This document shows positions 5,623-38,496 of a DNA stretch of 42,631 bases, in pieces. Made by a program: the position numbers and the translations under genes. Where the stretch lies: NCBI GenBank assembly GCA_011620555.1, contig WOYY01000075.1, positions 1 through 42,631 of the forward strand. The letters run 5' to 3'. The first letter of the stretch is position 1. Every line of letters begins with the position of its first letter. The stretch comes from Anaerolineaceae bacterium. GTDB lineage: Bacteria > Chloroflexota > Anaerolineae > Anaerolineales > Anaerolineaceae. The notes below the pieces were generated by a model. It ran no database searches and was not told the origin of the DNA. It saw only the letters and a program-made list of their open reading frames with translations.

Positions 5623-6963
5623 TTAGGCTGAGGTCAGGTAGCGGTTTAATTCCCAATCGGTGACATGGGTGCGGAACTCTTCCCACTCCGTCATCCGGGA
5701 TTTAAGGAAGGCTTCCGTCAGGATGCTGCCCAGAGCGGAATGCAGGACGCTGTCTGACTCGAAGGCGACCAGGGCTTCAAAGAGGGAGCCGGGCAGCATT
5801 TCGATGCCCAGGTCGATCCGCTCTTCATCCGTCAATTCGTAAACATTCATCTGGTTCAAGGGCTTGGGGCAGGCCAGGCCCTTTTCGATTCCATCCAGGC
5901 CAGCGGCCAGCATGACATTGAAGGCCAGATAGGGGTTGGTGGAGGGATCAGGGAAGCGCAGTTCCAGCCGTACGGTCTTGGGATTGTTGGCCATCGGCTG
6001 CGGAATGCGGATCAGGGCGGAGCGGTTCACCTGCGCCCAGCCGATATAGACGGGGGCCTCATAACCGGGCACCAGACGCTTGTAGGAGTTGACCGTGGGG
6101 GCGACCACGGCGGTCAGCGAGCGGGCGTGGTTCAGAACGCCGGCGATGTATTGGTAGGCCAGGGGGGACAGCTTGAAGGCGTCATCCCTGTCATAGAACA
6201 GGTTGTTGCCGTCCAGGTCGAAGATTGACTGGTGGCAGTGCATGCCGGAGCCGTTGATGCCGTAGACGGGCTTGGGCATGAACGAAGCGATCAGCCCGTG
6301 CTGGGCGGCGATCGCTTTGACGGCGTATTTGAGCGTGAGCACGTTGTCGGCCGTCTTCAGGGCGTCCGCGAAGCGGAAGTCGATCTCATGCTGTCCCAGA
6401 GCGACCTCATGGTGGCCCATTTCGATCTCAAGCCCCATCAGGCTGAGGGCGTCCATTAGCTCCGTCCGCACGCGGACAGCCTCGTCATTGGCGGAGAAAT
6501 CGAAATAGCCGCCGATGTCGTGGGGGACGGGGTGAACGGTCTCGTTGCCGTTACGCAGGAACAGGAAGAACTCCGGCTCGGGGCCGATGTTCAGGATCCA
6601 TTTGCGGTTCTCCTTCAGGCTGGCCAGGCGCCGCTTGAGGGAGCCGCGCGGGTCGCCATCAAAGGGTTCGCCATTGGGGTGGTAGATGTCGCAAAGGATC
6701 CGGGCGCGTTTGAATTCGTCCGGCGACCAGGGCAGGATCGCGTAGGTGTCCGGGTCGATGACCAGCTGCATGTCGCTTTCCTGGATCCGGGCAAAGCCTT
6801 CCACAGAAGAGCCATCAAAGAAAATCCCGTTATCCAGGGCCGAGGGGACCTGGTTGATGGGCAAGTCTACGCTCTTGACCACGCCGTTCACGTCCGTGAA
6901 CTGGAACGAGACGAACTTGATCCCATCTTGCTTAATTCGTTCTAAAACATCATTTTTATCCAT
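5623..6963 (-). CDS. glnA: Glutamine synthetase, type I
   Basis: This 446-residue enzyme makes glutamine from glutamate, ammonia and ATP and is normally a dodecamer in the cytoplasm. Diagnostic parts are FDGSSVEGF, NIGPEPEFFLF, GHHEVALGQHEIDFR (metal and glutamate site), MPKPVYGINGSGMHCHQS (ATP-binding signature), NSYKRLVPGYEAPVYIGWA and RLELRFPDPSTNPYLAF. The length and absence of the beta-subdivision insertion suggest the GSI-alpha type, close to Bacillus GlnA in style. The consensus adenylylation loop is not evident, so control is probably by feedback or at the RNA level. The ATG at 6963 has GGAGG five bases upstream; the frame extends further but without a site. The 5' leader of about 375 bases carries the ribozyme described separately. 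Confidence 0.97.
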   Translation of the reverse strand: MDKNDVLERIKQDGIKFVSFQFTDVNGVVKSVDLPINQVPSALDNGIFFDGSSVEGFARIQESDMQLVIDPDTYAILPWSPDEFKRARILCDIYHPNGEPFDGDPRGSLKRRLASLKENRKWILNIGPEPEFFLFLRNGNETVHPVPHDIGGYFDFSANDEAVRVRTELMDALSLMGLEIEMGHHEVALGQHEIDFRFADALKTADNVLTLKYAVKAIAAQHGLIASFMPKPVYGINGSGMHCHQSIFDLDGNNLFYDRDDAFKLSPLAYQYIAGVLNHARSLTAVVAPTVNSYKRLVPGYEAPVYIGWAQVNRSALIRIPQPMANNPKTVRLELRFPDPSTNPYLAFNVMLAAGLDGIEKGLACPKPLNQMNVYELTDEERIDLGIEMLPGSLFEALVAFESDSVLHSALGSILTEAFLKSRMTEWEEFRTHVTDWELNRYLTSA

Positions 6964-7068
6964 AACATCCTCCAGTAGAAACACGAATCAGAATTTTCCA
7001 AAGAGCGCACAATTTAAGCTAAGGTACCCGAACTTAGCGCCGGGAAAGGTTTTCCTGGCTTGCTCACT

Positions 7069-7266
7069 ATGGCTGCTTTGGCCTGCTTGTCGCCAAACAG
7101 TTTTGAACATCCATTTTGGAAAAGAGAACTTAGACCCGTGTTCAGGCCCAGGAGGCATCCGCTGATCTATCGATTTTCCCCGGTGGAAACCGGGTTAGCA
7201 CTTCCTTCGCAAGAAGGAACCTCCACCTCGTTATCTCGGCCCTGGAGGGGGCGAGACTCAGCCGCT
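7069..7266 (-). ncRNA. glmS ribozyme: glmS-type self-cleaving ribozyme in the glnA leader
   Basis: Read on the minus strand, the segment matches the conserved core of the glucosamine-6-phosphate-activated glmS ribozyme in order. (1) The cleavage-site consensus A|GCG at 7266/7265. (2) A P1 hairpin, TCTCG-C-CCC with GGG-C-CGAGA (about 7256-7233). (3) AACGAGGTGGAGG at 7232-7220. (4) AATCGA, then CAGCGGATGCCTCC at 7164-7151, the near-invariant glmS block. (5) A short P3-like hairpin followed by TAAG. (6) A helix CTGTTT/AAGCAG around GGCGAC, followed by CCAAAG, matching the P4-domain pattern helix-GGUGAC-helix-AACAAAG. Base-pair support: GCTGA after the cleavage site is complementary to TCAGC before GGATG, and GGAGG pairs with CCTCC. 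Two hairpins are inserted between GGAGG and ATCGA. The downstream gene is glnA, not glmS. Confidence 0.85.
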
Positions 7267-7344
7267 TGTTTCTTTTTATTCAGTTGGGGGTGAGATTTAA
7301 ACTTGAAGCGTCATCCATCCCAAAAGGAAGGATTAATTGGGTTA

Positions 7345-7373
7345 TTTATAACATTTTTTAGCGCAAGAGTCAG
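7345..7373 (-). promoter_or_regulatory. Candidate glnA promoter
   Basis: On the minus strand CTGACT (7373-7368) and TATAAA (7350-7345) are separated by 17 bases. Transcription would begin near 7338, about 70 bases before the ribozyme cleavage site, and include the whole ribozyme. The -10 match is good and the -35 match is partial. Confidence 0.45.
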
Positions 7374-7470: not shown

Positions 7471-7491
7471 GTTATGGAAAGAGAGTATAAA

Positions 7492-38400: not shown

Positions 38401-38496
38401 CGGGAATGGATGGGAGTCGAACCCACCACGGCTCGCCACGCGACCCGACAACCGATTTTGAAGACCGGGAGGCCCACCGGGACCTAACCATTCCCA
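38401..38496 (-). tRNA. selC: tRNA-Sec, anticodon TCA
   Basis: On the minus strand the acceptor GGGAATGG pairs with CCATTCCC over eight bases. An unusually long D stem (GTCCCGG with CCTCCCGG), an anticodon stem CCGGT/ATCGG with loop CTTCAAA giving TCA, a long variable arm, and a T arm with GGTTCGACTCC follow. Together these are specific to selenocysteine tRNA. Its 3' end reads G then CC without the final A. It implies that the organism decodes UGA as selenocysteine. Confidence 0.95.

Follow-up and report, generated by a model that had tools for sequence, protein, structure and literature searches.

The glmS ribozyme (RF00234), described from Bacillus subtilis and Thermoanaerobacter tengcongensis, is presented as a device for glmS in the available portions of PMC2258182 and PMC11477304, and cut glmS messages decay via RNase J1 according to the accessible part of PMC7125110. 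Glutamine synthetase is tied to a different RNA, the glutamine riboswitch (glnA RNA, RF01739; PMC3766115 and PMC11477304, in the portions available).

The element described here lies in a 42,631-nucleotide stretch of Anaerolineaceae DNA, which we call the window and to which all unprefixed coordinates refer. It resembles the glmS ribozyme in its covariance match, its double-pseudoknot core, its A/G cleavage dinucleotide, its helices P1 to P4 and the GNRA loop in P4, but differs in the gene that follows, since it precedes glnA and not glmS (placement before glmS is a habit of the class and no structural criterion). With the glutamine riboswitch it shares the tie to glutamine synthetase; that riboswitch, however, is of another family, with glutamine as its ligand, and was absent among the three gathering-level matches of the whole window. 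Variant riboswitch classes with an altered ligand exist, the ykkC variants among them, and are comparable in combining a known fold, a consistent change in a subgroup and a new gene context; they differ in that the glnA-side ribozyme keeps its pocket residues unchanged. In the open-access literature searched, we found no report of a glmS-class RNA before glnA or glutamate synthase. The abstract of McCown 2011 reportedly places all but two of 463 glmS ribozymes within glmS messages, and those two exceptions could be of the glnA-side kind.

The glnA leader and its ribozyme

The ribozyme-bearing stretch lies on the minus strand between a divergent gene starting at 7474 and glnA (5623-6963), which is preceded by the ribosome binding site GGAGGA (6968-6973) and encodes a type I glutamine synthetase of 446 amino acids. 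The initial annotation, made from the letters alone, had called this gene secure, and Pfam bears it out (Gln-synt_C, E 5.7e-125, with Gln-synt_N); a PF00120 search of the 96%-complete genome gave a single match, the glnA downstream of the ribozyme. The ordered glmS-ribozyme motifs recognised in that annotation are indeed present on the minus strand, and the RF00234 covariance model, which it had proposed as a check, gives a significant match at 7277-7059 (39.6 bits against a gathering cut-off of 37, E 5.9e-6) that covers the model end to end. The break that it predicted between 7266 and 7265 agrees with homology to the class, by which A(-1) is 7266 and G1 is 7265; the predicted cut would fall 302 nt from the glnA start codon.

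Upstream of the ribozyme is a candidate extended -10 promoter element, TGTTATAAA (7345-7353, minus strand), of the form TGnTATAA. This form recurs 5' of the ribozyme in all 14 glnA leaders of the window's genus; a sigma-70 scanner did not call the candidate at 7345-7353. A second motif, AACTGAAT (7278-7285, minus strand), sits just 5' of many glnA-side ribozymes, its GAATA core occurring in 15 of the 30 glnA leaders counted. A pairing of AACTGAAT with AGTG behind P4 was considered and failed when read against other leaders.

The whole element spans 7059-7277 on the minus strand and was delimited by RF00234 and by covariation in 27 relatives; residues are numbered as in PMC7125110, by a mapping made in this analysis. 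Directly behind the predicted cleavage site (7265-7266) comes the 5' strand of P2.2 (C2-A8, 7258-7264), in which residue counts over 41 glnA copies mark position 4 (7262) as bulged. It is followed by the P1 hairpin (7234-7256), where five of six pairs show changes on both sides, and by the active-site strand ACGAGG (A27-G32, 7226-7231), which includes the 5' strand of P2.1 and is the same in 41 of 41 glnA copies. The P2 5' strand GGAGG (7220-7224) then leads into two hairpins with both-side changes, P2a (7201-7216, five of six pairs) and P2b (7179-7194, five of five). AATCG (7171-7175) forms the 3' strand of P2.1 and the cofactor pocket, the latter role being assigned from the accessible text of PMC7125110, in which residues 43-45 and C28 line the pocket; U43, C44 and G45 are found in 41 of 41 glnA copies. 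The 3' strand of P2.2 is TCAGCGG (U51-G56 plus G57, 7159-7165), also invariant in 41 of 41, and is followed by the P2 3' strand CCTCC (7151-7155), identified from the pairing table of 27 copies, by the P3 hairpin (7131-7150, both-side changes in five of six pairs) and by the upper stem of P4 (7083-7100, seven of seven), which carries a GCGA loop of the GNRA type at 7093-7090.

Pairing was examined over 27 glnA copies, leaving out of the alignments the four truncated ones among 31 (G021, G027, G040 and G056), for ten helices including both pseudoknots, or 54 pairs and 1444 cells. Standard pairs occupied 94.3% of cells, against 38-48% when partners were slid by one to three columns, and 36 of the 54 pairs had changed on both sides; the conservation of paired positions in relatives that the initial annotation had called for is thus borne out. 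P2.1, whose pairs are invariant, and P2 paired in 100% of cells, P3 in 98.1%, the P4 upper stem in 91.0%, and P2.2 in 98.1% when a single nucleotide is bulged at position 4. Two helices had been put forward at the outset on the strength of base changes that keep pairing. GGAGG/CCTCC holds, pairing in every cell; GCTGA/TCAGC is unlikely to be one contiguous helix, because position 4 is A or U in eight of 41 glnA copies and A cannot pair with C55.

Residues were tabulated, and a tree built, from 99 chosen loci giving 100 rows (41 glnA, 53 glmS, three glutamate synthase, two DegT, one CofD). G1, C2, G3, A27, C28, G29, A30, G31, G32, U43, C44, G45 and U51-G57 are invariant in 41 of 41 glnA copies, in an alignment that leans towards the glnA copies because it was fitted to a model built from them. 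In the screen of PMC7125110, according to its accessible part, ten single mutants that do not cleave, at G1, C2, G3, A27, C28, G56 and G57, served as references; the window and all 41 glnA copies carry the class residues at these seven positions. A further helix, P0, would join the leader 5' of the cut to the stretch that follows P3. It is weak in glnA copies (mean longest match 6.21, 5.87 when swapped) and clear in glmS-side copies (6.97, 5.65 swapped). Own over swapped P0 pairing brings a clear gain in the 58 rows outside the glnA branch (L001 and L027, for example) and a slight one in the 42 rows within it.

From these comparisons we conclude that the window element is a glmS-class RNA with an intact core and a conserved placement. 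A chance match was set aside on covariation and synteny, and an assembly accident on the same gene order in 30 further genomes and four named records, two sets that may overlap.

Copies in relatives and the P2.2 bulge

At E <=1 the window's own genome holds two RF00234 matches, the window copy and one ahead of glmS on contig C88 (C88:51925-52034, 40.3 bits). The latter is of the same class and differs in its placement, in its P2.2 form (GCGCCAGG/TCGGCGG) and in falling on another branch of the tree than the glnA copies. This second copy had gone unmentioned in the initial annotation, as had the shift of the P2.2 bulge, the terminator-like hairpins seen in relatives and the other target genes.

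We then searched 61 genomes (the window's own and those of 60 relatives) with RF00234 at E <=0.05, seeking GlmS and GlnA downstream by tblastn. There were 79 matches in 54 genomes, followed on the same strand by glmS in 47 cases, by glnA in 31 and by neither in one (G057). Counted by genome, 25 had both copies, 22 the glmS copy only, six the glnA copy only, one neither and seven no match; two of these seven (G041 and G044) match a more sensitive custom model, R1, in both cases ahead of glmS. R1 also gives a 134-bit match directly ahead of glnA in G054 (family f6) that RF00234 missed. The glnA copy is present in 14 of the 16 genomes from the window's genus; the other two, G014 and G005 (70% complete), gave no GlnA match at 1e-50. 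Among named genomes, four of the best 80 of 589 GlnA loci have the element ahead of glnA, namely those of Bellilinea sp. KatS3mg047, one Anaerolineaceae MAG and two Chloroflexota MAGs, so that the same RNA before glnA, which the initial annotation had expected in other Anaerolineae, is found both in relatives and in named records. The element was not matched at the other 76 of these 80 loci, many of them from Firmicutes and archaea. Within the DNA searched, several relatives have GlnA with no ribozyme, for example Leptolinea tardivitalis, whose strain YMTK-2 has GlnA and no ribozyme match ahead of glnA. The Rfam cut-off is passed by 13 of the 31 glnA copies and missed by 18, so that many would escape routine annotation. 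A gap in R1 scores that seemed to divide glnA from glmS copies was dropped, since some glnA-side copies of family f12 score 80-88 bits, below some glmS copies.

The tree was drawn from 147 columns, a small number, and 100 rows, with the trait columns kept in and 26 of 97 inner branches left open. All 41 glnA rows, together with the glutamate-synthase row of G057, form one starred branch (98/93), and the glnA label requires two changes on the tree against 31.9 in shuffles. Read most simply, the glnA branch would have arisen once. The G057 row is a long one, and where exactly it belongs in the tree is unsure.

What sets the glnA copies apart is the bulge in P2.2. Homology pairs C2 with G56 and G3 with C55 and sets C5-U6-G7-A8 opposite G54-A53-C52-U51. 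Position 4 in the 41 glnA copies is G in 33, A in six and U in two (the U4-A5 rows L056 and L060, both of family f5), and never C; in glmS copies it is C in 51 of 53, and the other two look misaligned. In the glmS copies C4 can form a pair with G54, C5 occurs in each of the 14 rows that have G53, and A5 in 36 of 53 rows, which places their bulge at position 6 or 5. Of the 41 glnA copies, 39 have C5 and all 41 have U6 together with A53, which places theirs at 4. The glnA copies, with their bulge at 4, thus depart from the canonical position 6, as given in the available text of PMC7125110, and from the position 5 of many Anaerolineae glmS copies.

The accessible portion of that paper bears on the shift in several ways: C4G by itself is rated highly detrimental, A6C rescues C4A about 24-fold, and bulges moved toward the middle of P2.2 are inferred there to beat mismatches (PMC7125110). 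We infer that the glnA copy would be an active but slower or weaker ribozyme. If the finding holds, two natural copies within one cell differ by a single bulge in the active-site helix, and the published mutant landscape could be tested on such pairs.

Proposed control of glnA and competing readings

The explanation that fits best, and which we consider probable, is that the glnA leader carries a GlcN6P-responsive ribozyme that lowers glnA expression, is paralogous to the glmS copy and is tuned in a graded manner. As GlcN6P accumulates, it would bind the conserved pocket and act as catalytic cofactor, and the leader would be cut at 7266/7265. The new 5'-OH end would be degraded, probably by RNase J; a gene of the RNase J family is present in the genome (TIGR00649, 564 bits). 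Decay of the message at its cut leader would therefore lower glutamine synthetase, and less amide nitrogen would pass into GlcN6P. Through its two copies, GlcN6P would restrain both the glutamine-spending enzyme (GlmS) and the glutamine-making one. The P2.2 bulge at position 4 probably slows or desensitises the glnA copy, and glnA would therefore be lowered only at high GlcN6P. We infer the cleavage, the ligand, the decay route and the weaker tuning of the glnA copy. Taken together, the arrangement suggests that cell-wall sugar supply may feed back on nitrogen assimilation in a Chloroflexota group. If true, several families of one order use a catalytic RNA to couple ammonia assimilation to the supply of cell-wall precursors, and two ribozymes per cell raise the question of whether one metabolite is read at two thresholds.

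Cleavage in response to GlcN6P is weakened as a reading by the highly detrimental rating of C4G in the available part of PMC7125110, because all glnA copies lack C4. It is also weakened because 18 of 31 glnA copies fall below the cut-off and the glnA of some relatives has no ribozyme. In other families, a terminator-like hairpin suggests an additional or other mechanism. By a criterion of at least seven stem pairs and a T-rich tail behind the ribozyme, with limits set after the hairpin had been seen, such hairpins occur in 12 of 19 glnA leaders outside the genus and in ten of ten f12 leaders (22 of 29 together), against one of 44 glmS leaders, none between ribozyme and glnA in the 14 leaders of the window's genus, and 0.08-0.3 per group in shuffled leaders. 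Their stems have changed on both sides. A simple scanner made a lone terminator call near the window's glnA, which is helix P3 within the ribozyme. If the terminator of the glnA branch is real, this would be the first glmS-class RNA to have an expression platform in addition to self-cleavage.

These hairpins raise an alternative in which the GlcN6P-sensing RNA works through transcription across much of the order. Whether the hairpin terminates would depend on the ribozyme domain's state, and in the window's genus, which lacks the hairpin, only cleavage would be left. Their frequency outside the genus, their rarity in glmS leaders and the two-sided stem changes speak for it. The hairpin is nevertheless missing from the window and its genus, its limits were chosen after it was seen, no antiterminator was settled on by eye in the hairpin-bearing leaders, and the cleavage core, which attenuation alone would not need, has been kept. 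We regard this alternative as unlikely.

It is improbable that the glnA branch has kept the cleavage mechanism and changed its ligand, for example to an amine such as glutamine. The P2.2 difference runs through the whole glnA class and adjoins the active site, and a glnA leader would most obviously sense glutamine; yet pocket residues 43-45 and C28 are unchanged in 41 of 41 glnA copies, and the bulge shift is partly compatible with GlcN6P-driven cleavage on the available text of PMC7125110.

Family f12 differs in its gene order. In all ten f12 loci read by eye, an ada-like open frame comes next after the glnA-type ribozyme, and in G270, where Pfam was applied, the order is ribozyme, a gene for an AraC helix-turn-helix and methylguanine methyltransferase protein, and an EamA gene; from the end of this transporter gene to glnA is 62 nt. 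In 11 of the 13 f12 genomes compared, ribozyme and glnA share a strand, with glnA 2.2-2.7 kb downstream; G350 and G060 have them on separate contigs, and in G222 the ribozyme is directly ahead of glnA. The two intervening genes of f12, the terminator-like hairpins outside the genus and a 6S RNA gene directly upstream in six of 20 loci would all suit an element that is mainly an independent short RNA, ending ahead of glnA and exerting no control in cis. We nevertheless hold this very improbable, as the genus has no terminator-like site, placement before glnA is kept in 31 genomes of the relatives search, and ribozyme and glnA follow one another on one strand in those 11 of 13 f12 genomes. That the element is a functionless decayed copy of the glmS ribozyme, as scores below most of the class might suggest, is scarcely credible and was rejected on its invariant core, which is identical in 41 of 41 while the peripheral helices covary.

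Other target genes and neighbouring arrangements

Ribozymes of the class also lie ahead of other genes. Three further genomes (G057, G341 and G093) carry a ribozyme ahead of glutamate synthase. The G057 copy has a glnA-type P2.2 and precedes glutamate-synthase genes, and no GlnA match at 1e-50 was found in that genome; its core reads AACGGC in place of AATCGA and does not fit, a stretch that may be misaligned within a very long P2b insert. In G341 the downstream genes encode a glutamate synthase (PF01645, E 5.4e-102) and a glutamine amidotransferase protein, and in G093 an FAD/iron-sulphur/Glu_synthase fusion, a second Glu_synthase protein and a glutamine synthetase with 50% identity to that of the window. 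In a fourth genome, G301, the gene behind the ribozyme encodes a CofD-family protein with fused phosphoglucomutase/phosphomannomutase domains, which may be a GlmR-GlmM fusion. G341, G093 and G301 each also have a copy ahead of glmS.

Of 56 further matches (36 from the class and 20 from the phylum outside it), which were chosen down score-ordered lists among the matches listed and not at random, 54 have GlmS downstream and two (G118 and G454) a DegT/DnrJ/EryC1/StrS aminotransferase. GlmS is likewise downstream in 27 of the best 30 RF00234 loci of the class search, the exceptions being the CofD case (L103), a locus cut by a contig end (L092) and L088, where the frames look transposase-like by eye. 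L088 (G356:C3:1368265-1368519) is an RF00234 match of 74 bits followed by these open frames and not by glmS. Outside the order, then, glmS downstream is the rule among the loci sampled. A broader reading, in which GlcN6P signals to nitrogen assimilation across the Anaerolineae, glmS-class RNAs have been recruited repeatedly (to glnA, glutamate synthase, the CofD-phosphohexomutase fusion and DegT) and the glnA branch has gained a terminator in several families of the order, is one that we advance tentatively and would sooner doubt than assert.

One locus in family f1 (G385, L162:395-4485) carries ribozyme, glnA, a second ribozyme and glmS in that order on one strand, a possible picture of how a glnA copy could arise or spread. 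Two adjoining R1 matches lie ahead of glmS in G301 (C50:16171-16504) and two overlapping ones in G251 (C29:21990-22248); the weaker of each pair scores 25-26 bits, and these may be tandem or rearranged ribozymes. In the 90 nt before the ribozyme match, 24 of 46 glmS leaders have a GGAGG resembling a ribosome binding site, against two of 30 glnA leaders; cleavage would remove this site from the message. Six of the 20 loci scanned (L057, L063, L116, L117, L118 and L123), and also L249, have the 6S RNA gene (RF00013) noted above just upstream of the glnA-type ribozyme and in the same orientation; in the window's genome 6S RNA is on another contig, C24. Elsewhere in the window, a selenocysteine tRNA gene lies at 38402-38495 on the minus strand (63.9 bits).
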